Assembly (NCBI GenBank): GCA_016841365.1
Contig: JAENZI010000018.1
Span: 1 to 48,715 of the forward strand
Direction: 5' to 3'
DNA: 48,715 nt
Origin: Anaerolineaceae bacterium
GTDB taxonomy: Bacteria; Chloroflexota; Anaerolineae; Anaerolineales; Anaerolineaceae
Part shown: piece after piece, positions 35,513 through 48,345 of the stretch
Numbering within the stretch: the first letter of the stretch is position 1
Layout of the letters: each line of letters opens with the position of its first letter
Program-made: the position numbers and the translations under genes
Notes under the pieces: generated by a model
Database searches by the model: none
What the model was told of the DNA's origin: nothing
The model's input: the letters and a program-made list of their open reading frames with translations, nothing else

Positions 35513-38500
35513 ATGGCTAAATATTTCCGTCATGGGAGACCGACAATAGGCGTTTTAGCTGGCTGGCAGTTTTATCGGACTGCTACAAATCTCAGCTATC
35601 TTGCTCCTGTTTATAGCGGAATTGCAAAAGCTGCTTCTGAATTGAACTGCAACTTGCTTTTGGGATGCGGGATTGGCCCGTCGGCAAGCCCAACGGATCC
35701 GATGAAGGCTGCTTGGCCTGTTCTATTACCTGACCAGGATTTTTTACCGATTGGTGAATGGAATACGGATGGATTAATCATTGCTGTACCCCTTCATTCA
35801 GAAGCCCATTCAAACTATGTCCAGAATCTTATCAGAGCAGAACATCCTGTTCTTTTTATTGGTTTAGGAGAACAAGGGCCTACGATATTCGTTGACAATT
35901 TGGGCGGTGTCAACCAAGCAATGAACCACTTGTTTCAGCATGGGCATAAAGATATTGCTTTTATTGCGGGATCTCAAAATGACTTGCATGGGGATACCGG
36001 GGAACGATTAGCTTCTTATCAAAAATTCATCGAAACAAATGATTTAAACCAGGATCCCCGATTAATTGCCTTTGGTCGACATATTTATAGCGGCGGTTAC
36101 AATGCAATGCAAGAATTAATTGCATCAGGTTGTACCTTTACCGCTGTCATGGCAAGTAATGATGAATCAGCACTTGGCGCGATGGATGCGCTGAAAGCAT
36201 CTGGATTAAATGTGCCGGGGGATGTCGCAATCATCGGATTTGATAATCGTTTTGAAGGTGCGATTCAAGAACCAGGTCTGACCAGTATTCACGTTCCTTT
36301 GTATGATATTGGGTATCAATCATTAAAGCTTATGACCCAGAGGATTGTTGAGGACAAAGAACTTCCTGAAAAAGTGAAGATCGAAACGCAATTGATCATA
36401 AGGCAGTCATGTGGGTGCAAAGGAAGTAATTACTCAACTGATCAGCATTCAGATCATGCACTTTCTGTAACTGAGACCATTGAAGACAATGCTGAACAGA
36501 TCGTTGAATTAATCAATCAAACCATATTCATAGAGGTTCAAAATTTTTCAAAAGGAGAAATTCGAACTTTATGTCAGCAATTGGTGGAAAGCTTTATTGA
36601 AAGCATTACCTCAGAGAACGTTTCACATTTTCAGCATGTTTTATTGGAGGTGTTGAGGCAAACAGAAAATAACAATGATGTTGTTTACCTTTGGCAAAAA
36701 GCGATTGATGTCTTGGATTCTGCATTCATCTCAGGATCGGGAGGATCTTCAAAGTTTACTCAAAAATTAATAGAAGAAGCCAGATATACTATCAATTTCC
36801 AAATGCAATTGCAGCACCGGCGGCATGTTAAGGATGAAAGATGGGTATCCAGTCGGCTAAGTCTACTTACAGCAGAATTATTAGCTGCAATTGATCAGGA
36901 ACAGATTTTTTCAATCCTTGCTAAACGGTTGCCTGAAATGGATATCCCAATCGCAAGATTAGCACTCTTTGAAGAAAAAACTGAAAAATCCCTGGCAATT
37001 AGCACAATTCAAGATGTTTTAGATCCTGATCAAGAACCAATCCGGTTTACCAGCCGCAATTTTCCACCGGTAGGTTATTTCGATGAAAAAGAACCATATT
37101 TTCTGACTTTGATTCCAGTATTGGATCAAGAACAGCAACTAGGTTTTATGGTCTTTGATGTTGATCATCTTGACCTCTATGGATCGATTGTCCAGCAAAT
37201 GGGTAGTTCTTTGAATACACTCAGGTTATACCGGCAAGCGACTGAAGGGCGAAAACTGGCTGAGGAAGCAAATAAGCTGAAAAGCAGGTTTCTTTCTATG
37301 ATAAGCCATGAATTACGCACGCCATTGAATTTAATATCGGGTTTGAGTGAGATCGTCTTGCAAGATGCTGAAGAAGACCACCTTAATATTTCTTCAGCAA
37401 TCGAAAAAGATATTTTGAATATTAAAACATATTCGCAACATTTGAATGGGCTGATCGGTGATGTTATTGATCTTGCTACGCTTGATGCCGGCCAATTTCG
37501 TTTAAATAAGGAACTGATTGACCTTGGTGAGACCCTTCAAATGGTTGTGGAAAGTGGAAAACAACTCGCCTTGGAAAAGGGATTAAAATGGCACGCTGAT
37601 ATTCCTAAAACTGGTCCCTGGGTATGGGGTGACCGGACACGTTTGCGTCAGGTAATATTGAATTTGATCAGTAACGCAACTAAATTTACGAAACAAGGTG
37701 AGGTTAATTTTTATCTTTCCGAAGGGGATGGCAAAGCAATTATCAAGGTGGAGGATACAGGTATTGGTATTTCTCCTGATGAACAAGAGGAAATTTTTGA
37801 TGCATTTCGCCGTTCAGAACACAGTATTTCGATGGGTTTGCCAGGTCTTGGTTTAGGGTTAACCATCAGCAAAATGATTGTTGAAATGCACGAAGGGAAG
37901 ATAGGATTAAGATCAACAGGAGTTGAGGGTCAAGGATCTACCTTCTTCATCGAATTGCCCATTTTGAATTTGCCTGTGGTTAAATCGGGATTTGTTGCTC
38001 AACCTCAGCATGAGAGTAAAAGGACTGTCTTGTTGTTGACCACACGGCCTGGAACAAATTTGGCTTTGTTGGAGAGTTTGAAGAAGCGTGAGATTAAAGT
38101 TTATGAAGAAATAATGGGAGAAACTGAAATTTGGCAATCAAAATTACACGATATCGCCCCAGAAGTCATCATTCTTGATGTGACGATACAGTCAGATCTA
38201 ACATGGCTCACCCTGAATGCCATCAAAGAAAATGATTTGACGCAATCCACTCCCATTTTGTTATATGCTTCTAAAAAAGAAAAAGATTCTTTGATCAGAT
38301 TAGATTTTCTCACCAAGCCTTTTGAGGTAGATGATTTAACCAAGACTTTGGATCAATTCTGGGATTTAGCAAAAAAAGATGGAAAAACCCGCTTTATCCT
38401 TGTTGTTGAAGATGACCCTAACACACTCGACTTATATGAAAGGATAGTCAAATCGCATTCGACGGCTAATAAGGTTCTGCTGGCAACAAACGGATTAGAA

Positions 38501-39094
38501 GCACTGGATATTATTGAGGCAGAAGATATTGATCTTGTGTTACTTGATTTGCAAATGCCTGAGTTGGATGGTTTTGGTGTTTTAGAGAAAATGCGCGCAG
38601 ACGAACGAACAAGGAATATTCCGGTTATTGTTGTGACCGGTTTGGTATTGTCAGAAACAGAGATCAAGCGGCTTAATGAAGGCGTTTCAGTTATTTTACA
38701 AAAGGGATTATTTAGTATTGATGAAACTGTAGATCATATTGAGTCGACGCTGAATAAAAAGCAACAATTAAGTCATGAGACCCAGCACCTTGTCAGGCGG
38801 GCTATGGCATTTATTCATGAACATTATAATGAACCAATTTCACGCCGCGATATTGCTTCGCATGTCAATATATCCGAAGATTACTTAACCTATTGTTTCC
38901 GCCAGGAATTGAAGGCAACCCCGATCAGGTATATTCAGCGATACCGGGTAAATATCGCTAAAACCTTACTCAAAGATACGGATAAGAGTATTACCGAAGT
39001 CGCTTTGGCAGTGGGATTCTCTGAGGGCGGATATTTCAGCCGTATTTTCCGGCGTGAAATGGGGCTGTCGCCGGATCAATATCGGCGGGAATAA
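35513..39094 (+). CDS. Hybrid LacI-sensor / histidine kinase / receiver / AraC regulator
   Basis: This 1193-residue single-chain signalling protein has no signal peptide or membrane helix. Residues 8-300 form a LacI/GalR-like sugar-binding domain (RPTIGVLAG, IGFDN) without the LacI helix-turn-helix. A helical and GAF-like region (about 310-575) leads to HisKA with His599 (SHELRTP). An HATPase follows, with N-box near 717-721 and DTGIG at 748-752. Then come a degenerate receiver (Asp889, no acidic pair) and an intact receiver (VVEDD; Asp1012). The C-terminal AraC DNA-binding domain (about 1095-1193) has two HTH motifs. It precedes a glucan operon that it probably controls. No clear Shine-Dalgarno sequence is present. 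Confidence 0.93.
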   Translation: MAKYFRHGRPTIGVLAGWQFYRTATNLSYLAPVYSGIAKAASELNCNLLLGCGIGPSASPTDPMKAAWPVLLPDQDFLPIGEWNTDGLIIAVPLHSEAHSNYVQNLIRAEHPVLFIGLGEQGPTIFVDNLGGVNQAMNHLFQHGHKDIAFIAGSQNDLHGDTGERLASYQKFIETNDLNQDPRLIAFGRHIYSGGYNAMQELIASGCTFTAVMASNDESALGAMDALKASGLNVPGDVAIIGFDNRFEGAIQEPGLTSIHVPLYDIGYQSLKLMTQRIVEDKELPEKVKIETQLIIRQSCGCKGSNYSTDQHSDHALSVTETIEDNAEQIVELINQTIFIEVQNFSKGEIRTLCQQLVESFIESITSENVSHFQHVLLEVLRQTENNNDVVYLWQKAIDVLDSAFISGSGGSSKFTQKLIEEARYTINFQMQLQHRRHVKDERWVSSRLSLLTAELLAAIDQEQIFSILAKRLPEMDIPIARLALFEEKTEKSLAISTIQDVLDPDQEPIRFTSRNFPPVGYFDEKEPYFLTLIPVLDQEQQLGFMVFDVDHLDLYGSIVQQMGSSLNTLRLYRQATEGRKLAEEANKLKSRFLSMISHELRTPLNLISGLSEIVLQDAEEDHLNISSAIEKDILNIKTYSQHLNGLIGDVIDLATLDAGQFRLNKELIDLGETLQMVVESGKQLALEKGLKWHADIPKTGPWVWGDRTRLRQVILNLISNATKFTKQGEVNFYLSEGDGKAIIKVEDTGIGISPDEQEEIFDAFRRSEHSISMGLPGLGLGLTISKMIVEMHEGKIGLRSTGVEGQGSTFFIELPILNLPVVKSGFVAQPQHESKRTVLLLTTRPGTNLALLESLKKREIKVYEEIMGETEIWQSKLHDIAPEVIILDVTIQSDLTWLTLNAIKENDLTQSTPILLYASKKEKDSLIRLDFLTKPFEVDDLTKTLDQFWDLAKKDGKTRFILVVEDDPNTLDLYERIVKSHSTANKVLLATNGLEALDIIEAEDIDLVLLDLQMPELDGFGVLEKMRADERTRNIPVIVVTGLVLSETEIKRLNEGVSVILQKGLFSIDETVDHIESTLNKKQQLSHETQHLVRRAMAFIHEHYNEPISRRDIASHVNISEDYLTYCFRQELKATPIRYIQRYRVNIAKTLLKDTDKSITEVALAVGFSEGGYFSRIFRREMGLSPDQYRRE

Positions 39095-39667
39095 GTCCTT
39101 TCGGGTCATTAAAAATTACAAGTCAATTCAATTTTTATCCATCCTAAATCAATGATATCGTGAAAATATTACTGAGGGGGCAATCATCCTTGATGGAGGT
39201 TTAGATTTAACATGGAAAAGACATCTATGAATTGTCCATGTTTTCCCCGCTTTTCTCCACGAAAAATCTCATCGAAATCACTAAAATCTTAATAGACACA
39301 AAAATCTCTCAAGCTGCATATTTCTTGTTGATCAAGAAATGCAGTGATTTTTCGTCTTGCTTTAAGTGATCAGAGCCAGCGCACATAATTCTTTACCGTC
39401 CAAATCTTAAGTTAACCAAAAAATGACTATGAAAAACTCCCCTAAAAATAAACCTGACACACAAACGATTTGGTTTACTGGGCAATCTGCTTCATACCCA
39501 AAAACATAGGTAATGAACCAGATGCAATTTTTTGTTGATATGTTAAACAGGCTGATGACTTCTAAAAATCCGATATTTTGATGGAGGTGAAAAAAGAAAA
39601 ATTGGTTTATGCACGATACAGAAGTTCAATTTCAGTTAAGCAATTTCTATTTTCTAAAGGAGAAGCA
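39095..39667 (+). other. Regulatory intergenic region before the glucan operon
   Basis: This 573-base AT-rich region has no convincing gene. It contains a hairpin CTGCATATTTCTTG (39314-39327) with CAAGAAATGCAG (39333-39344), where the left arm has two extra bases. That hairpin is nested inside a longer inverted repeat ACGAAAAATC/GATTTTTCGT (39259-39268/39346-39355). These may form a terminator for the regulator gene or an operator for the AraC-type domain. No consensus promoter stands out. The frame of the binding-protein gene is open upstream to 39578, but AAGGAG supports ATG 39668. Confidence 0.5.
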
Positions 39668-40990
39668 ATGAACAAAAAGCATTTCGTTTTTAGTCTGTTA
39701 TTAGTCCTCACAATTCTTTTGACAGCATGTGCGTCAGGAACTGAAACAACTGATGATGCGCAACCTGTTGAGGAAGATGTAACCTTGCGGGTGCTTGTAC
39801 ATCAAAATCCGCCAATGGTGGCCTTCATGGAGGAGTTCAATCAGGCATTCGAAGAGAAATATCCTAATGTGACCGTGGATATGTCCGTAGTCAACGCGAA
39901 TGATCTGAGTACCGTTACGCAAACACGCCTGACCGCCAATGATGTTGACGTTGTGGATATGTTTGCATTTACCAATGCTGCCCAACCCTACATGAAGAAT
40001 GTTGATCCGCCAAACTGGCAGACCCTTATTGAAGCTGGTTATTTGATGGATCTCACTGGTCAGCCCTTCCTGGATAACTATTATGAATCAGCTATTGCAG
40101 ACGCTGGTACTTATAACGGGAAAGTTTACCAGATCAACCTGGGTACTGTTTCTTATAGCGGTCTTTATTACAACAAAGATCTCTTCGCTCAGTATGGCGT
40201 GGAAGTTCCCACGACCTACGATCAACTGGTGAGTGCCTGTGAGACCTTTACGGCTGAAGGAATTCCCTGTATGACCGCTGGCGGTAAGGACGGCTGGCCG
40301 ATCTTCGTTGGTGCTTATGGTTTAATTGGCTCTATCTATCCAGATCAGGAAGCATTGGTTGAAGGGTTATGGACAGGATCCATTAAGTGGAATGATGAAA
40401 AATCCATGGAAATGTGGGATAAGATGAAGGTTTATGCCCAGGATATGATGGAAGAAGGCGCCAGTGGTATCGCAGGTGATGCTGCTCCTGGACGTTTTGC
40501 TTCTGGTGCGGTAGCAATGTTTGCCGGGGGAACTTGGTACGCGGCTGCTATCGAATCGGCTGAACCGGCATTTGAGTGGGGTTATATCCCCTTCCCCGGC
40601 AGCGATGATCCTGAAGACAACAAATATCTATTTGGTAAATATGATCAGGGTTGGGTTATTGCTGAAAATTCACCCAATAAAGAAACCGGGCTCCTGTACT
40701 TAACCGAGTTCTCTGAACAGGAAAACTACGCTGCATTTGTCAACGCAGTTGGCTTCTTCCCCACCCAGCCAGGCGTAACTTTGGATACGCAAATTGGACG
40801 TGAAGTTGCTCCATACCTGGAGAATTTTAGAGTTGGTTATGAGCAATATTATGTGGCCCCCAAGGGCGCAGGTCAATATGCTAACCCCTGGGCATCATAC
40901 TTTGCTCCCTTTGGCACCTTTGATGATGCTGAAGAACTTGCCAACAAAGTCCAAGAAGATCTGCAATCCGGATTGGATGCTAATCAGTAA
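39668..40990 (+). CDS. Sugar ABC transporter substrate-binding lipoprotein
   Basis: This 440-residue extracytoplasmic binding protein belongs to the CUT1 (family 1) type. A lipoprotein signal ends LTILLTAC, with Cys at about residue 20, so it is tethered to the membrane. The mature protein has the MalE-like VTLRVLVHQNPP start, YNGKVYQINLG and a Trp/Tyr-rich binding region, fitting oligosaccharides. AAAGGAG precedes ATG 39668. It is the first gene of the transport operon; a strong hairpin follows it before the permeases, which would favour high binding-protein levels. Beta-glucan oligosaccharide specificity is inferred from the neighbours. Confidence 0.93.
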   Translation: MNKKHFVFSLLLVLTILLTACASGTETTDDAQPVEEDVTLRVLVHQNPPMVAFMEEFNQAFEEKYPNVTVDMSVVNANDLSTVTQTRLTANDVDVVDMFAFTNAAQPYMKNVDPPNWQTLIEAGYLMDLTGQPFLDNYYESAIADAGTYNGKVYQINLGTVSYSGLYYNKDLFAQYGVEVPTTYDQLVSACETFTAEGIPCMTAGGKDGWPIFVGAYGLIGSIYPDQEALVEGLWTGSIKWNDEKSMEMWDKMKVYAQDMMEEGASGIAGDAAPGRFASGAVAMFAGGTWYAAAIESAEPAFEWGYIPFPGSDDPEDNKYLFGKYDQGWVIAENSPNKETGLLYLTEFSEQENYAAFVNAVGFFPTQPGVTLDTQIGREVAPYLENFRVGYEQYYVAPKGAGQYANPWASYFAPFGTFDDAEELANKVQEDLQSGLDANQ

Positions 40991-41003
40991 CTATGATTTC
41001 GTA

Positions 41004-41038
41004 AATATGCTTCCTGTCAAATAGACAGGAAGCATATT
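41004..41038 (+). promoter_or_regulatory. Intergenic hairpin between binding protein and permease
   Basis: A perfect 15-bp stem, AATATGCTTCCTGTC (41004-41018) with GACAGGAAGCATATT (41024-41038), closes a five-base loop. The following AAATTTTGATAG is not a strong T tract. Hairpins at this place in sugar ABC operons commonly stabilise the upstream mRNA and cause partial termination, giving excess binding protein. That role is inferred. Confidence 0.75.
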
Positions 41039-41064
41039 AAATTTTGATAGAATGGAGGTTAAGT

Positions 41065-41994
41065 ATGAGGGGCTATCATTTTGGCGGTGGTAAGTCGCGT
41101 TGGGCGCCCTATCTATTTCTTCTTCCAGGGCTTTTATTGTACGTGATGATTGCTTTGGGCCCATCTATTTCCACAACGTTCTTTTCATTTACGAATGCAA
41201 CAGGTATTAGAGGTGCACCCGTCGACTGGGTTGGCTTGGATAACTATAAAGAATTTCTCTTTATGGGTCAGGCTTCACGTGACAACCTCTCAGCGCTTGG
41301 ACGGACTCTTCTCTTTTGTTTTTTTGTTACAACCATCCAATTTAGTTTGGGATTACTGGTTGCTGTTTTGGTTAACCAGAAACTTAAGGGTACTAATTTT
41401 TTCAGAACCCTTTATTTTATGCCGGTGATCCTTGGCGCAGTCATTCAGGGGTTGATCTGGTCGCTTTTCCTTTATCCCTTAGGCGGCCCGATGGACTCTA
41501 TTCTGAATTTCTTTGGTATGAGTTCGGAGTTTTTTGGAGGGCCACCAACAGAAGCGTTTGGCTGGGTCATTGTGGTTCAAATATGGGCAAATCTGGGAAC
41601 GACAATGATTATCTTCCTCGCCGGTCTGCAAACGATCCCCAGTGAATTGTATGAGGCAGCAGAAATTGATGGCGCGAACAAGTGGAAGGTATTTAAAAAT
41701 GTAACCTGGCCATTGCTTACCCCAAGCGTGAACACAAATCTGCTCTTGAATATTATTGGGTCCCTTCAGGCGTGGCAGTTGTTCCTGGTGTTAATTGGTT
41801 ACCGAAATGGAACCCAGGTTTTGGGCTATTTGATTTATGCTGTCGGCTTTGGTCAAACTTCCGGCAGTGTCACCAGCTCATTCCGACAGGGTTATGCTGC
41901 TGCTGCATCCATTGTGTTATTTATCTTGGTTCTGATATTGGGAACAACAACACAGTTTTTCCTAAGTCGTAGAGAGAGAAGGATATTAGGATGA
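41065..41994 (+). CDS. Sugar ABC transporter permease (MalF/UgpA type)
   Basis: This 309-residue inner-membrane permease has about six transmembrane segments, beginning APYLFLLPGLLLYVMIALGP. The ATPase-contact EAA loop reads EAAEIDGANKWKVFKNVTWP near residues 208-227. The ATG at 41065 has GGAGGT five bases upstream, whereas the upstream in-frame TTG has none. It overlaps the next permease by four bases (ATGA), indicating coupled translation. No ATPase gene is present in the locus, so a shared MsmK-like ATPase elsewhere is likely. Confidence 0.95.
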   Translation: MRGYHFGGGKSRWAPYLFLLPGLLLYVMIALGPSISTTFFSFTNATGIRGAPVDWVGLDNYKEFLFMGQASRDNLSALGRTLLFCFFVTTIQFSLGLLVAVLVNQKLKGTNFFRTLYFMPVILGAVIQGLIWSLFLYPLGGPMDSILNFFGMSSEFFGGPPTEAFGWVIVVQIWANLGTTMIIFLAGLQTIPSELYEAAEIDGANKWKVFKNVTWPLLTPSVNTNLLLNIIGSLQAWQLFLVLIGYRNGTQVLGYLIYAVGFGQTSGSVTSSFRQGYAAAASIVLFILVLILGTTTQFFLSRRERRILG

Positions 41995-42827
41995 ACGTAG
42001 ATATGAAAATCCGACGTCCAATTAAATGGGGAAAGATATTGTCCTATGCGGTTCTGATCATCTTTGCCATAGTTTATGCCGGCCCCTTGATCATGTTGGT
42101 TAACACTTCTCTGAAATCGCTCCCCGATTTTATGAAAAGTGCAACATCACTTGTGACTTCACCGAACTTTGATAACTTTATTGATGCATGGCAGAAGGCA
42201 AATTTTCCCCGTTATTTAACCAACACAGTGCTCTATACCGTTACGGCAACCCTGGTTTATGTGGTAACTGCAATATTTCTCGCATTTCCTGTTTCCAGAG
42301 GGTATATCAAAGGCGCAAAAATTATTCTATTTCTGTTCATTGTTGCGCTATTTTTACCCCCAGCCTTGATCCCTCAATTCCAATTAATGTTGAGACTTGG
42401 CCTATATAATAACCCTATCGGATATATTCTATTATTCACGATCAATCCGATTGGGTTCACAATCCTTGTCAATTACATCAAAACGATACCTATTGAACTT
42501 GATGAGGCTGCCGCATTAGATGGATGCAGCTATTTTAAGTTTGTGACAATGATCCTCTTCCCATTGATCAGGCCTGCTGTGGCGACGGTTGCAGTGTTGC
42601 ATGCAATTGGTATTTGGAATGAATTGATCTTGCCAACAATTTACCTCACGAGTCAGAAGTATTACCCCATCACCCGTGGCATGATCGTTTTCCAGGGTGT
42701 TTATGGCAGTAATTGGCCGACCTTGGCAGCCGCCGTATTGATCATGACCTTTCCTATGCTGCTCATCTTCTTATTGATGCAGCGATACATCATCTCTGGG
42801 TTAACCACGGGAGCTGTCAAAGGATAA
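41991..42827 (+). CDS. Sugar ABC transporter permease (MalG/UgpE type)
   Basis: This 278-residue second permease subunit has an N-terminal membrane helix (LSYAVLIIFAIVYAGPLIML) and about five more. The EAA loop is DEAAALDGCSYFKFVTMILF. Its ATG overlaps the stop of the first permease. With that protein it forms the CUT1 heterodimeric channel for the upstream binding protein. A large hairpin follows before the GH16 genes. Confidence 0.95.
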   Translation: MNVDMKIRRPIKWGKILSYAVLIIFAIVYAGPLIMLVNTSLKSLPDFMKSATSLVTSPNFDNFIDAWQKANFPRYLTNTVLYTVTATLVYVVTAIFLAFPVSRGYIKGAKIILFLFIVALFLPPALIPQFQLMLRLGLYNNPIGYILLFTINPIGFTILVNYIKTIPIELDEAAALDGCSYFKFVTMILFPLIRPAVATVAVLHAIGIWNELILPTIYLTSQKYYPITRGMIVFQGVYGSNWPTLAAAVLIMTFPMLLIFLLMQRYIISGLTTGAVKG

Positions 42828-42835
42828 CGTAAGTA

Positions 42836-42882
42836 TCAGGTAAGGTTTTCATTTCGATCGAATGAGCAAAGACCTTACCTGA
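42836..42882 (+). promoter_or_regulatory. Intergenic hairpin between permease and GH16 genes
   Basis: TCAGGTAAGG (42836-42845) pairs perfectly with CCTTACCTGA (42873-42882), and an inner helix TCATT/AATGA extends the structure. There is no T tract. It may protect the upstream mRNA end or act as a processing site that separates transport and hydrolase expression. Confidence 0.6.
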
Positions 42883-42921
42883 AATTCAATCTTCCAATGG
42901 AACAAAGGGAGCTCTATCATC

Positions 42922-43749
42922 ATGCAAAAATTTCAGCGACTATCAGTGATCGTTCTTCTTCTAGTTGTTATTACAGCCTGTACGCCGCTCAACCTGGCAT
43001 CAGAATCAGATGTTATTGAACCGCCCGAGGGGTGGGAATTACTATGGAATGATGAATTTAGCGATAGAAAAATCAATACATCAAATTGGACTTATGACCT
43101 GGGTGGTGGCGGTTGGGGGAATGGTGAAATGCAGACTTATACCGACTCCAATGATAATGCACACATAGAAGATGGGATGTTGGTTATCACCGCTCAAAAA
43201 GAAACACTTGAAGGCGGTGGATTTAATTTCACATCAGCCAGGCTAAAGACCCAAGGATTACAGACTTTTCAATACGGCCGAATCGAAGCCAGGATCAAGG
43301 TGCCTGAAGGAAAGGGGTTGTGGCCTGCTTTTTGGATGCTTGGAGAGAACTTTCCGGAAGTCGGTTGGCCGGATTGCGGTGAAATTGACATTATGGAATA
43401 TGTCGGCAGAGAGCCCGATTTGATTATTGGCACCCTGCATGGCCCTGGTTACTCAGGAGCCGTGGGCTTGAGCAAGTGGAACCGGCAGGACTATGCTATT
43501 GCTGATGACTTCCATACCTACGCCATTGAGTGGGATGAAGATCAGATCAGTTGGTTTTATGACGGGGAGAAATACAGCACCTACACCCGAGAGGATGTCG
43601 GTAACCGGGATTGGGTCTTCGACCAGCCCTTCTTTATCATTCTTAATCTGGCAATTGGCGGCACACTTGGCGGAATTGTGACACCCGATACAGAATTTCC
43701 GGCGCAGTATATGATTGATTATGTTCGTGTTTATGAAAAAACACCGTAA
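42922..43749 (+). CDS. GH16 endo-beta-glucanase lipoprotein (laminarinase type)
   Basis: This 275-residue lipoprotein has a signal sequence ending LLLVVITAC, with Cys at about residue 20. The GH16 domain follows, with WNDEF near the start and the catalytic motif GEIDIMEYVG: nucleophile Glu154, Asp156 and acid/base Glu159. Adjacent WPAFWMLG and LHGPGYSG regions match laminarinase-like subfamilies that hydrolyse beta-1,3 or mixed beta-1,3-1,4 glucans. It should act on the outer face of the cell, feeding oligosaccharides to the transporter. The second GH16 gene starts 15 bases after it. Confidence 0.92.
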   Translation: MQKFQRLSVIVLLLVVITACTPLNLASESDVIEPPEGWELLWNDEFSDRKINTSNWTYDLGGGGWGNGEMQTYTDSNDNAHIEDGMLVITAQKETLEGGGFNFTSARLKTQGLQTFQYGRIEARIKVPEGKGLWPAFWMLGENFPEVGWPDCGEIDIMEYVGREPDLIIGTLHGPGYSGAVGLSKWNRQDYAIADDFHTYAIEWDEDQISWFYDGEKYSTYTREDVGNRDWVFDQPFFIILNLAIGGTLGGIVTPDTEFPAQYMIDYVRVYEKTP

Positions 43750-43764
43750 ATAGGACTTTATCCG

Positions 43765-44562
43765 ATGCAGCTATCCAAAGATGATGAACTGGTCTTTTTT
43801 GATGATTTCACATCAGATGAATTAGATCGGTTCAAGTGGAACGTAGAAGTTACCGGGAAACGTCATAATAATGAACAGCAAGCATATATTGATTCAAGCG
43901 AAACGATTTTCTTTAAGAAAAAAGTAGATGAAGCAGACGGTGTTCTTGTTATTCAGCCAAAGTTTAAAAAGAATTTTATTACCACAGAAGGTATGTCCTT
44001 TGATTTTGTGTCAGGGAGAATACATACAAAGGGGAAATTTGATTTTACATATGGCAGGATTTCGGCCAGGATCATGCTCCCAAAGGGCGATGGATTGTGG
44101 CCAGCTTTTTGGCTTCTGGGAAGCCAGGGGAATTGGCCTGTTTGTGGCGAATTAGATATCATGGAAGCTGTGGGTGAGTCCGATTGGATCAGTGCGGCAG
44201 TACATGGCCCCGGGTTTTCGGGGGAGTCTGCACTCGTCAATAAAAAATACTGTGAGTCTCCTGAGTCGGCAACTCAGTGGCGTACTTATTCACTGGATTG
44301 GACTCCCGACAGCCTCTATTTCATGGTGGATGAAGAACTGATTTATCGAGTTTCTCGTCCAATGGTTGAGTTTTTTGGTCCTTGGGTTTACGATAAGAAA
44401 CAGCATATTATTTTAAACTTGGCTTTAGGCGGCCGTTACCCATATAAAACAAATGGGATCAAAGAGCCTTATTATGGGATGCCTGAAGCAACAGTAAAGG
44501 CAATTGTCAACGGTGAAATTGCTATGCTCGTAGATTGGGTGAAAGTATATCAAGGTCAATAA
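43765..44562 (+). CDS. GH16 family glycoside hydrolase without signal peptide
   Basis: This 265-residue GH16 enzyme begins MQLSKDDELVFFDDF with no signal sequence, so it is predicted to be cytoplasmic. The active site GELDIMEAVG has Glu129, Asp131 and Glu134; WPAFWLLG and VHGPGFSG are conserved. The paralogue is clearly diverged from the lipoprotein GH16 upstream. It would shorten imported oligosaccharides before phosphorolysis. The ribosome-binding site (TAGGAC) is weak. Beta-1,3 specificity is inferred from the locus. Confidence 0.92.
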   Translation: MQLSKDDELVFFDDFTSDELDRFKWNVEVTGKRHNNEQQAYIDSSETIFFKKKVDEADGVLVIQPKFKKNFITTEGMSFDFVSGRIHTKGKFDFTYGRISARIMLPKGDGLWPAFWLLGSQGNWPVCGELDIMEAVGESDWISAAVHGPGFSGESALVNKKYCESPESATQWRTYSLDWTPDSLYFMVDEELIYRVSRPMVEFFGPWVYDKKQHIILNLALGGRYPYKTNGIKEPYYGMPEATVKAIVNGEIAMLVDWVKVYQGQ

Positions 44563-44584
44563 TCTATCTAAGAGGAATATCGCG

Positions 44585-47500
44585 ATGAAAAAGGATACCG
44601 GACCAATTTTTGTTGGTGAAACCCCATTACAACACAAAACCTCTGAAGTATCAGGTGAATTTTTAGAGCTGTTTGGAGAGACTTATTACAAGATCCAGAA
44701 TTATGACCGGATGCCGCCATTTTTCATGAGCCTGGTCAGCAGTTCCAATCACTGGTTCTTTATATCTTCAACAGGGGGGTTGACGGCAGGGCGCGTAAAC
44801 CCTGAAAACGCGTTATTTCCTTATTACACCGAAGATAAAATCACAGAAAATTATGAAAATACGGGAAGCAAAACTATCTTGCTGATCACCCGTGGAAATC
44901 GGGTTTTCTATTGGGAACCTTTTTCGATCCGCCAGCAGGGGCTTTATGATGTGCACCGCAACCTCTATAAGAACAAAACCGGCACATCATTGGTTTTCGA
45001 GGAGGAAAATCGCGATCTTGGTCTCATTTTCCGTTATGCTTGGCGGACAGGCGACCGGTTTGGCTTCATAAAAACCTCTTGGTTGGTCAATTCATCTGAG
45101 GAATGCCGCGTGGAATTTCTGGATGGCATTCAGAATATTCAGCCTGCTTTTTCGCAAGTAAGTGTACAGAACACAACTAGTTGCTTGTTAGATGCCTATA
45201 AACGCAGCGCACTGGATGTCAAAACCGGGCTTGGGATTTTCACCCTGAATGCAACTCTGACGGATCTTCCCGAACCCAGCGAGTCCCTATTGGCGACAAC
45301 GGTCTTCCAGGTTGGTTTGGAAAATCCGAATATCCTGCTCTCATCTGCTCAATTGAGTGATTTTAGAAATGGGCGCGGCATAACACAGGAAACTGAGATC
45401 CGCGGAAAGCGCGGGGCATATTTTGTTCATTCAGAACAAGAATTACTTGCGGGGGAGGAAATTTCCTGGCATATTGTCGCCGATGTAAGCCAGGATTGGT
45501 CCCAGATGGCAGATAGAAGAAATTTACTGGTTGAGCAACAAGGTTCTTTGAGCATGGAGATCGAAAAGGATATCAATAGAAATCAAAATGAAATTACGGC
45601 ACTCGTCGCACAAGCGGATGGCCTGCAGCTTTCAGCGGATCAACCTACGACAGCACATCACTTTGCCAATGTGTTGTTCAATATCATGCGCGGCGGCATT
45701 TTCTATGATCAGTACTGGATCAGCAAAAAGAAATTTATGGATTACGTTTATGGCCATAATCAAGGCCTTCTCAAAGAAGCAAAGGCATTCTTTTCCGCCC
45801 TGCCAGAGCAAATTTATATTTATGATTTATATTCACGCGCTGAGCAATATGGGGATGCAGATCTGATTCGCTTATCCTATACCTATTTGCCATTATTCTT
45901 TAGTCGCAGGCACGGTGACCCAAGCCGGCCGTGGAATATGTTCTCGATCAACATCAAGGAAAGCGATGGTTCTGACCGGCTTGATTATCAAGGAAACTGG
46001 CGGGATATCTTCCAAAACTGGGAAGCCTTAGCCTGGTCCTACCCCGAATTTGTTGAGGGAATGATTTTCACCTTTTTGAACGCTACGACCGCTGATGGTT
46101 ATAACCCTTACCGGATCACACTTGAAGGCATTGATTGGGAAATTCCTGAACCGGGTAACCCCTGGAGCAACATCGGCTATTGGAGCGATCATCAAATCAT
46201 CTATTTGTTGAAGCTGATGGCGTTGAGCGTGAGGGTGCATCCCGGGAAACTACAAAGCATGTTGGATGAGCCGATTTTCAGTTATGCCAATGTGCCCTAT
46301 CGGATTAAACCCTATCAGGATTTGTTGGATGATCCGTACCATACCATCCTTTTTGATGCGGCGCTTGAAGAAAAAATCGAATCAGATGTCAAGAAATATG
46401 GATCGGACGGAAGACTTCTTCGCGATTCTGATGGGCAGGTTATCCATCGTACATTGGTTGAAAAATTACTCACGCTGCTATTGGCAAAACTGGTTAATTT
46501 TGTCCCAGAAGGCGGGATCTGGATGAACACCCAGCGGCCAGAGTGGAATGACGCGAATAATGCCCTGGTTGGCAAAGGCCTTTCTGTGGTCACCTTGGGG
46601 TACCTGTACCGCTTTATTACATTTTTCAAAGCATTGATCAAGGAGAAGGCTGAAACACAATACCAGGTCAGCGCTGAGGTAGAGCAACAATTTTCAACAA
46701 TCTCAGCAATACTGATCGAATTTGAGCAGCATCTTAAGGGAATATTCAATGACCAAATTCGTTCACAAATATTAGGTGCGCTGAGTGAAGCCGGGAGCGA
46801 ATACCGTGAGAGCCTTTATCGGCGAGGCTTTACGGGTGAATTTTCAGAACTTCCAGCACAAGGCCTAATTGACTTCCTTGATAGGGTTGGGCGCTTTCTC
46901 GCCCATTCACTCAAAGCAAATCGCAGAGAAGATGATCTGTACCATGCTTATAATGTAATCCAATTCGGCGATCAAAGCATTGGCATCAAACACTTAGATG
47001 TCATGCTGGAAGGGCAGGTATCCATTCTGTCATCCGGGATGCTCTCAGGGGAAGACGCGCTAAATTTGCTTGAAAGCCTGCAGAAAAGCCCGCTTTATCT
47101 CGAAGACCAAAATTCTTACATCCTTTACCCCGATAAATCCCTGCCGGGGATTTTGGAGAAGAATAGCATTGCCCCAGAACTGCTGCGGGAATTGGCGCTG
47201 CCAGATATGCTTGCTGCGGAGAAAGATCAAAGCATCCTTGTGAAAGATGAACTGGGATATTTTCACTTCAGCGGCAGCATCCATAATGAGAGGGATGTCA
47301 GGCGGGCGCTGGAAAAGCTTGGACAGAACCCTAAATACCGGGATACCGTTGAACAGGAACAGGAAAAGATCGTGGACCTGTTCGAGTCGGTGTTTCGGCA
47401 TTCGGAATTCACCGGGCGCTCAAGCACCTTCTTTGCTTACGAAGGATTGGGGAGCATTTACTGGCATATGGTATCCAAACTGCTGCTGGCCGTTGTGGAA

Positions 47501-48037
47501 ACCATCCAAACCTGTGAAGATAATGCCCTGGCGTCGCGTTTGTTGGAGAAATACCGCGATATCCGGGCTGGGCTGGGCTTCAATAAACCGCCCGAGAAAT
47601 TTGGTGCATTTCCGAGCGATCCCTATTCCCATACCCCCAAGGGGCAGGGGGCAAGGCAGCCGGGGATGACAGGGTTGGTGAAAGAGGAGGTCATTGCACG
47701 CCTGGCAGAGCTGGCTTTAACTGTTGAGGAGGGCTGCCTGGTTTTTGATCCATCGCTCCTCAACCCCGAGGAATTGCTTTCCTCCGCTGCAACCTTTGAT
47801 TTTATTGATATAAAGGGTGAACACCAATCCCTGTCTGTCCCTGCAGGCTCGGTCGCGTTTACTTATTGCCAGACGCCGGTCATCCTAATGGTTGGTAAAG
47901 CAGCAGAAATTGTTGTTGAAACCAGTGATGGGCAGCGCATGACGGTTGAGGGGAGCAGGCTTGATCAGGGAACCAGCGCCCACATCTTTAAACGCGATGG
48001 GGTTGTGGAGAAAATCAGGGTGAGGGTTGAGAAGTAG
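44585..48037 (+). CDS. Clan GH-Q-like phosphorylase, candidate beta-1,3-glucan phosphorylase (GH161-like)
   Basis: This 1150-residue protein has no signal peptide. Beta-sandwich-like N-terminal sequence (WFFISSTGGLTAGR) is followed by an (alpha/alpha)6-type region with PEWNDANN, whose Asp656 matches the WND catalytic acid of GH94-type enzymes, and FFAYEGLGSIYWHM. The length fits the beta-1,3-glucan phosphorylase families GH161 or GH149 better than cellobiose phosphorylase (about 800 aa). Expected reaction: glucan oligomer plus phosphate gives glucose-1-phosphate and a shorter chain. AGAGGA precedes the ATG. The family choice is from memory of length, motif and context and needs profile confirmation. 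Confidence 0.8.
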   Translation: MKKDTGPIFVGETPLQHKTSEVSGEFLELFGETYYKIQNYDRMPPFFMSLVSSSNHWFFISSTGGLTAGRVNPENALFPYYTEDKITENYENTGSKTILLITRGNRVFYWEPFSIRQQGLYDVHRNLYKNKTGTSLVFEEENRDLGLIFRYAWRTGDRFGFIKTSWLVNSSEECRVEFLDGIQNIQPAFSQVSVQNTTSCLLDAYKRSALDVKTGLGIFTLNATLTDLPEPSESLLATTVFQVGLENPNILLSSAQLSDFRNGRGITQETEIRGKRGAYFVHSEQELLAGEEISWHIVADVSQDWSQMADRRNLLVEQQGSLSMEIEKDINRNQNEITALVAQADGLQLSADQPTTAHHFANVLFNIMRGGIFYDQYWISKKKFMDYVYGHNQGLLKEAKAFFSALPEQIYIYDLYSRAEQYGDADLIRLSYTYLPLFFSRRHGDPSRPWNMFSINIKESDGSDRLDYQGNWRDIFQNWEALAWSYPEFVEGMIFTFLNATTADGYNPYRITLEGIDWEIPEPGNPWSNIGYWSDHQIIYLLKLMALSVRVHPGKLQSMLDEPIFSYANVPYRIKPYQDLLDDPYHTILFDAALEEKIESDVKKYGSDGRLLRDSDGQVIHRTLVEKLLTLLLAKLVNFVPEGGIWMNTQRPEWNDANNALVGKGLSVVTLGYLYRFITFFKALIKEKAETQYQVSAEVEQQFSTISAILIEFEQHLKGIFNDQIRSQILGALSEAGSEYRESLYRRGFTGEFSELPAQGLIDFLDRVGRFLAHSLKANRREDDLYHAYNVIQFGDQSIGIKHLDVMLEGQVSILSSGMLSGEDALNLLESLQKSPLYLEDQNSYILYPDKSLPGILEKNSIAPELLRELALPDMLAAEKDQSILVKDELGYFHFSGSIHNERDVRRALEKLGQNPKYRDTVEQEQEKIVDLFESVFRHSEFTGRSSTFFAYEGLGSIYWHMVSKLLLAVVETIQTCEDNALASRLLEKYRDIRAGLGFNKPPEKFGAFPSDPYSHTPKGQGARQPGMTGLVKEEVIARLAELALTVEEGCLVFDPSLLNPEELLSSAATFDFIDIKGEHQSLSVPAGSVAFTYCQTPVILMVGKAAEIVVETSDGQRMTVEGSRLDQGTSAHIFKRDGVVEKIRVRVEK

Positions 48038-48204: not shown

Positions 48205-48270
48205 GGGCGCATCGCCTCGCAGGCCCTGTAAAGGACTGTTGGTTAGAGCGCACAGTTAACATATGATTTT
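48205..48270 (+). pseudogene. Degenerate tRNA-Val-like copy
   Basis: Positions 48238-48262 match the D-loop to anticodon loop of the following tRNA-Val (48286-48310) at 22 of 25 bases. Upstream, GGGCGCATCGC (48205-48215) resembles the acceptor and D-stem start, separated by about 22 extra bases. There is no T-arm and no paired anticodon stem. It is probably a decayed duplicate that now forms part of the tRNA-Val transcript leader. Confidence 0.6.
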
Positions 48271-48271
48271 A

Positions 48272-48345
<74 letters not shown>

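Follow-up and report, generated by a model that had tools for sequence, protein, structure and literature searches.

A predicted beta-1,3-glucan catabolic operon in an Anaerolineaceae bacterium, headed by a soluble single-chain sensor-kinase-regulator and a conserved operator-like promoter

The window analysed here is a stretch of 48,715 nucleotides from an Anaerolineaceae bacterium (Chloroflexota; assembly GCA_016841365.1, contig JAENZI010000018.1) and is the whole of contig C9 of a 2.86-Mb genome rated 98% complete. Positions 35513-48037 contain seven open frames, all on the + strand, which very probably form a beta-1,3-glucan catabolic operon for cutting outside the cell, import and phosphorolysis, activated by a soluble sensor-kinase-regulator. 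The frames lie where an earlier note, made from the sequence alone, had placed them, and Pfam and NCBIfam domain calls agreed with its one-strand set of regulator, lipoprotein, two permeases, two GH16 proteins and a 1150-residue enzyme. A chance neighbourhood was ruled out by the recurrence of the same gene order in other genomes. The locus is real and is a variant of an already known kind of GH149 cluster; new here are the soluble fused regulator and the direct repeat with a -10-like hexamer that precedes the operon in all 18 loci compared. The features are as follows, ABC standing for ATP-binding cassette.

35513..39094, + strand: single-chain regulator, 1193 amino acids (Pfam, key residues, hydropathy, sensor relatives)
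39223..39258, + strand: predicted operator, a direct repeat of 21-bp period with the core TnTCC-N13-TTTTnTCC (a like site in 18/18 loci)
39282..39287, + strand: -10-like hexamer TAAAAT, 23 nucleotides (nt) past the operator (TAnnnT at 23 or 24 nt in 18/18 loci)
39668..40990, + strand: ABC sugar-binding lipoprotein, SBP_bac_1 (Pfam; open frame from 39578)
41004..41038, + strand: hairpin of 15 bp with a T-rich tail, between the binding-protein and permease genes (longest stem listed)
41044..41994, + strand: ABC permease 1, BPD_transp_1, MalF/UgpA type (Pfam/NCBIfam)
41991..42827, + strand: ABC permease 2, BPD_transp_1, MalG/UgpE type (Pfam/NCBIfam)
42922..43749, + strand: secreted lipoprotein GH16, laminarinase-like, catalytic motif EIDIME (Pfam, structure relatives, hydropathy)
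43765..44562, + strand: signal-less GH16, catalytic motif ELDIME, divergent C terminus (Pfam, structure relatives)
44585..48037, + strand: GH149 beta-1,3-glucan phosphorylase, 1150 residues, without a signal (NCBIfam, PDB match, motifs)

In the proposed pathway, the lipoprotein GH16 would cut the beta-1,3-glucan polymer, a sugar chain of the laminarin or fungal-wall type, outside the cell, and the binding protein and two permeases would bring in the oligomers with the help of a shared UgpC/MalK-type ATPase whose gene lies elsewhere. In the cytosol, longer or interrupted oligomers may be shortened by the signal-less GH16, and phosphorolysis by GH149 would turn the oligomers into glucose-1-phosphate and glucose. 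The regulator would detect a sugar in the cytosol by means of its LacI-type domain and relay the signal by a His-Asp phosphorelay within the one chain. Its AraC-type domain would then bind the 21-bp-period direct repeat beside the -35 region and activate the promoter before the binding-protein gene. No ABC ATPase was found by Pfam or NCBIfam among the seven locus genes; a UgpC/MalK-type ATPase gene is present on another contig (C17), and phosphoglucomutase-family genes also occur elsewhere in the genome.

The gene set was compared in 18 regulator-headed loci, namely the window and L002, L005, L006, L109, L110, L183, L244-L250 and L253-L256. GH149 was present in 16 of these, the gene of L250 being cut by the contig end, and the binding protein and both permeases were likewise present in 16. 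A GH16 gene occurred in 17, L110 being the exception. The inner GH16 was found in only 11 and is thus an optional member of the cluster. The route suggested in the earlier note, from an outside GH16 through import to phosphorolysis inside the cell under a fused regulator, agrees with the gene content and with the co-occurrence of these genes in relatives that it had expected; its view of the combination as unusual is weakened by the 11/18 count. Some observations weigh against the proposal. L183 and L245 have no GH149 beside the regulator and L250 and L256 lack the ABC genes; moreover, regulator score played a part in the selection of the 18 loci, and the counts are not population rates.

The domain boundaries of the regulator were placed as follows.

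Residues ~10-300: LacI-type sugar-binding domain
Residues ~316-550: helical and GAF-like linker
Residues 590-660: HisKA
Residues 706-817: HATPase_c
Residues ~838-952: degenerate receiver (from sequence)
Residues 962-1066: receiver
Residues 1114-1192: AraC-type helix-turn-helix (HTH_18)

The chains nearest to the sensor were LacI, CcpA and PurR. Pfam reported no LacI helix-turn-helix at the N terminus of the regulator, the sugar-binding part alone being matched, so the fusion of LacI, histidine kinase, receiver and AraC domains described in the earlier note was recovered with its LacI portion reduced to the sugar-binding domain. The highest 19-residue hydropathy of the window regulator was 1.47, inside the chain, which indicates no membrane segment. 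Thirteen of 16 aligned regulators had no hydropathy window above 1.6; the other three had two such windows each, with maxima of 1.61-1.74, located in the receiver or the linker. By these features the regulator is soluble, with a cytosolic-type sensor. Pfam gave nothing significant for the linker (residues 300-600), and a model built from 5 sequences had a mean predicted local distance difference test score (pLDDT) of 80.8 and a predicted template modelling score (pTM) of 0.56, with a helical and a GAF-like part; its structural matches were weak, including the likeness to GAF domains.

The possibility was considered that the regulator is a ligand-controlled activator or repressor of the AraC/XylR kind, in which the kinase and receiver are structural and no phosphorelay takes place. 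E. coli XylR, by the title of Ni et al., combines a sensor of LacI type with an AraC domain, and the pairing of a LacI/GalR-type sensor with an AraC DNA-binding domain is shared with the regulator described here. Furthermore, one receiver-like domain looks degenerate, which leaves the route of a phosphorelay uncertain. XylR is not known to have a kinase or receiver between its sensor and its AraC domain. In all 16 aligned regulators, however, the His that accepts the phosphate, the glycine-rich nucleotide box, and the Asp (residue 1012 in the window regulator) and Lys of the receiver were kept, and a purely ligand-controlled regulator is considered unlikely.

The regulator family was found in 18/400 Chloroflexota genomes at E <= 1e-100 and, with E <= 1e-150 as the limit, in 40/390 genomes of the order, some of the matches being partial; the fused regulator is a recurrent family in Chloroflexota. 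No published description of LacI, histidine kinase and AraC parts in one chain was found among titles and abstract openings in one open-licence library. In a quick tree of 36 rows, the 18 glucan-locus regulators lay on one side of a branch with an SH-aLRT (Shimodaira-Hasegawa-like approximate likelihood ratio test) value of 84; the 17 regulators other than that of L110 were grouped at a support of 100, as was the window regulator with that of L244.

Seven loci share the pattern TnTCC-N13-TTTTnTCC between the regulator and binding-protein genes, followed by TAnnnT after 23-24 nt. When 216 loci (5.65 Mb, both strands) were searched, the full pattern occurred only in these seven places, some in duplicate, and no other repeat spacing from 5 to 29 was found in the seven regions. 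An operator profile was built from these seven loci and tested on the 11 that had been held out. Within 700 bp after the regulator gene, 10 of the 11 scored 28.5-45.2. The background maxima of the profile were 11.35 (2401 windows of 700 bp) and 10.86 (435 windows of 3.5 kb), and all 11 held-out loci exceeded the background maximum, L248 after a wider search. TAnnnT stands 23 or 24 nt past the operator in 18/18 loci, 11 of them held out. The repeat of 21-bp period, followed by its -10-like hexamer, is put forward as the predicted operator of the regulator.

Five control regulators without a glucan cluster (L257-L261) all scored between -13.1 and -2.9. Of 22 further controls with enough sequence, 21 scored between -20.3 and 3.8; L231 had only 205 bases to search, and for eight of the 22 (L231, L235-L240 and L242) the lack of a cluster was assumed from the regulator score. 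Thus 26 of 27 control regulators were not above background. The exception, L243, which heads a galactoside operon (L262), scored 15.3, which argues that the profile is not strictly specific. The core pattern, without the -10 part, also occurred at two unrelated places (L069 and L214). Further points against the proposal are the result for L248, which scored -14.1 within 700 bp and reached 16.8 at about +3.2 kb only after the search was widened to 3.5 kb, and the failure of the strict regular expression in four of the 11 held-out loci (it found seven), for which reason the profile was used in its place.

The galactoside operon (L262:1515-17579) comprises a regulator paralogue, a binding protein, permeases, GH42, GalT (galactose-1-phosphate uridyltransferase) and GalK (galactokinase). 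It carries a weaker operator-like site, with TATAAT 23 nt on. We read it as a paralogue that appears to share the promoter design with changed half-sites, a single case among the controls.

That the operator belongs to the 3' end of the regulator gene was also considered but is unlikely: in L248 the regulator gene is separated by about 3.2 kb, carrying opposite-strand frames, from the site, which stands ~130-170 bases before the binding-protein frame. A loose pattern gave three places in the window's own genome, two of them elsewhere, versus two for a reversed control, and no convincing second operator was found there. A generic promoter scan did not list the -10-like hexamer at 39282-39287, that is, the hexamer had no good -35 partner, and the promoter before the binding-protein gene looks activator-dependent. 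The geometry of the operator fits an AraC-type dimer adjoining the -35 region.

The product of 44585-48037 matched the GH149 profile NF058639 at 1563.9 bits (cut-off 1150) over residues 19-1148, and matched PDB 6hq6 and 6hq8 at E=0. The score was 1148.8 bits against the GH149 structure 6hq6 and only 43.6 bits against the GH161 structure 9qqk. GH161, the family to which the enzyme had previously been likened, was ruled out by the profile score and the structure comparison; membership of clan GH-Q, proposed at the same time, stands. All of the active-site motifs defined for the GH149 enzyme Pro_7066 (PMC6771811) are present: RD at 473-474 (NWRDIFQNW at 471), the already noticed WND at 654-656, and His at 961 (IYWHMVSK at 958). 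By profile, structure and motifs, the phosphorylase is identified as GH149.

Pro_7066 is reported to take laminaritriose to glucose, whereas the GH161 enzyme PapP halts at the disaccharide (PMC6484121). This difference fits a locus without its own beta-glucosidase or GH94. No second GH149- or GH161-like gene was found in the genome of the window at E <= 0.001. The same model does detect the GH161 gene of a same-genus genome (G168), so that GH161 is probably absent from this genome at its estimated 98% completeness.

Both GH16 proteins exceeded the Pfam cut-off of 22 bits, with scores of 97.3 and 71.3 bits, and carry the ExDxxE catalytic motif as EIDIME in the secreted and ELDIME in the inner enzyme. 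The nearest solved relatives of both are beta-1,3-glucanases/laminarinases, those of the inner enzyme being 2vy0, 4dfs and 3azx. Both also match EglC/ExoK/BglS models (beta-1,3-1,4 or beta-glucanase) below cut-off. These matches raised the possibility that the locus serves mainly mixed-linkage (beta-1,3/1,4) or some other beta-glucan, the inner GH16 taking a linkage that GH149 cannot and GH149 being secondary, and the retention of GH16 genes without an adjoining GH149 in L183 and L245 points the same way. However, the solved relatives of both enzymes argue for beta-1,3-glucan, and GH149, described as a beta-1,3 family (PMC6484121, PMC6771811), is present in 16/18 loci; a mixed-linkage role is judged improbable.

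Judged from sequence, the start of the secreted GH16 resembles a lipobox (VITAC). A signal-like segment is present in the short secreted GH16 of the window, was found by the hydropathy rule in that of 12 further loci (L002, L005, L006, L109, L244, L246-L249 and L253-L255) and was judged by eye in L183 and L245; in L003 the start of this GH16 is cut off, and the long GH16 proteins encoded in L250 and L256 fall outside the rule. No signal segment was detected by hydropathy in the inner GH16 (43765-44562). Twelve copies of the inner enzyme were read (window, L002, L003, L005, L006, L109, L183, L244, L246, L247, L248 and L253), and ExDxxE was kept in all of them. The rule flagged two copies, L244 and L248, as signal-bearing and left the other ten unflagged. 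The hydrophobic stretch of L244 has no start codon ahead of it. L248 is ambiguous, because one earlier ATG would add the hydrophobic stretch, and the inner GH16 could be exported by another route; both considerations tell against a cytosolic place for this enzyme. If cytosolic, it may make new chain ends or get past interruptions that stop GH149.

That GH149 instead works towards synthesis and builds or trims a beta-1,3-glucan store within the cell, remodelled by the inner GH16, is highly improbable: the GH149 reaction is reversible (PMC5827456) and a cytosolic endoglucanase would suit a store, but the genes share an activator-dependent-looking promoter with the importer and the secreted GH16, and no glucan synthase frame is present among the seven genes.

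A catabolic operon of this composition resembles the GH149 clusters described by Kuhaudomlarp et al. 2018 (PMC5827456), in which type I clusters combine a sugar importer with a LacI or AraC regulator and type II clusters an extracellular GH16 with a cytoplasmic endoglucanase of family GH17. The shared features are GH149 with an importer and a regulator, and an extracellular GH16 with an inner endoglucanase. The locus differs from those clusters in that the importer is of the MalFG/UgpAE type without an ATPase, the inner endoglucanase is a GH16 and the regulator is one soluble chain; the host belongs to Chloroflexota, and the word Chloroflexi does not occur in the main text of that paper. The earlier note had regarded an inner GH16 together with phosphorolysis under a fused regulator as unusual. 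Given the GH17 precedent, an inner endoglucanase beside GH149 is not novel, and the regulator family is recurrent in Chloroflexota; the soluble regulator plus conserved operator-like promoter is more unusual than that note had seen.

Hybrid two-component systems (HTCS) are described as unique to Bacteroidetes, as membrane proteins and as sensing in the periplasm (PMC3878776). The sensor of the HTCS BT1754 belongs to the sugar-binding-protein family COG1879 (PMC3878776, PMC11253607), and the predicted operators of Bacteroides HTCS are direct repeats of 16 bp + 5, 12 bp + 9 and 14 bp + 6 (PMC3878776). Like an HTCS, the window regulator unites a sensor, a kinase, a receiver and an AraC domain in a single chain, heads a glycan locus and has a predicted direct-repeat operator, with a period of 21 bp compared with 20-21 bp in Bacteroides. 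Unlike an HTCS, it has no membrane segment and its sensor is nearest to cytosolic LacI-family proteins. The regulator is HTCS-like in its predicted working, yet is not classed as an HTCS because it lacks the membrane sensor.

Import and phosphorolysis of beta-glucan are also features of the GH161-GH94 tandem clusters described in PMC6484121 and of locus L199 of the same-genus genome G168, which contains LacI, ABC genes, GH39-like, GH3, secreted GH16, GH161 and GH94-like genes. L200 (genome G337) has the layout of L199 by gene order. L199 and L200 differ from the window in having another phosphorylase pair and an ordinary LacI, with no inner GH16 copy and no core operator pattern.

GH149 was above cut-off in 12/400 Chloroflexota genomes, and its relatives are encoded in at least 589 stretches of the genome collection. 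The full gene set is present in Ornatilinea apprima P3M-1 (L002), a described isolate (PMC4653792). A divergent gene with the length of an ordinary LacI takes the place of the fused regulator before the binding protein, permeases and GH149 in the Chloroflexia loci L112, L113, L114 and L116. PMC11919646 mentions sediment Anaerolineae with laminarinase genes; its list of GH149 reads gives Proteobacteria and Bacteroidota but no Chloroflexota.

The nearest regulator relative among those compared was that of L244, from another family, at 58%, and the regulator was absent from all 12 same-genus genomes listed in the order-wide search. The GC (guanine plus cytosine) content was 40.5% for the regulator gene, 41.9% for the inner GH16 gene and 47.2% for the GH149 gene; a genome sample of 219 kb had 49.3%. 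The tree, the same-genus absence and the low GC suggest that the locus was likely acquired horizontally.

It is likely that a class of soluble one-chain sugar sensors comprising a LacI-type sensor, kinase, receiver and AraC domain is widespread in Chloroflexota, that one of its clades governs the phosphorolysis of beta-1,3-glucan by way of a promoter of fixed design (half-site, 21-bp period, second half-site, 23-24 nt, -10), and that operon and regulator have passed together from one bacterial family to another. Judging from the L262 paralogue, the design may extend to more of the class with changed half-sites. For the use of beta-1,3-glucan by Anaerolineae, the locus offers a concrete predicted pair of regulator and operator. 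If this reading is true, HTCS-like control extends beyond Bacteroidetes and can do without a membrane sensor, and target operons can be recognised in sequence by the fixed geometry of their promoters.

Several minor features were also observed. For the binding protein, the ATG at 39668 is a more likely start than the open-frame start at 39578. A scan for hairpins with a T-tail found 14 sites compared with 11.9 expected in shuffles; the hairpin at 41004-41038 is possibly a partial terminator that lowers permease expression. At L183:8476-10077, in a same-family genome that consists of one contig, the cluster lacks GH149, and a frame with a partial match to alpha-galactosidase (Melibiase) follows the inner GH16; this frame is perhaps a remnant. 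A fused-family regulator at L191:6896-17894 stands with ABC permeases and a GH42 beta-galactosidase, without an operator site. Seven sister-clade regulators (L184-L190, genus g66) had no transporter or phosphorylase homologues in the stretches read. Finally, a tRNA-Val (cac) gene lies at 48272-48345 and has ahead of it a short partial repeat that resembles a tRNA (ggttagagcgcac; region 48230-48345); the contig ends about 370 bases beyond the tRNA.

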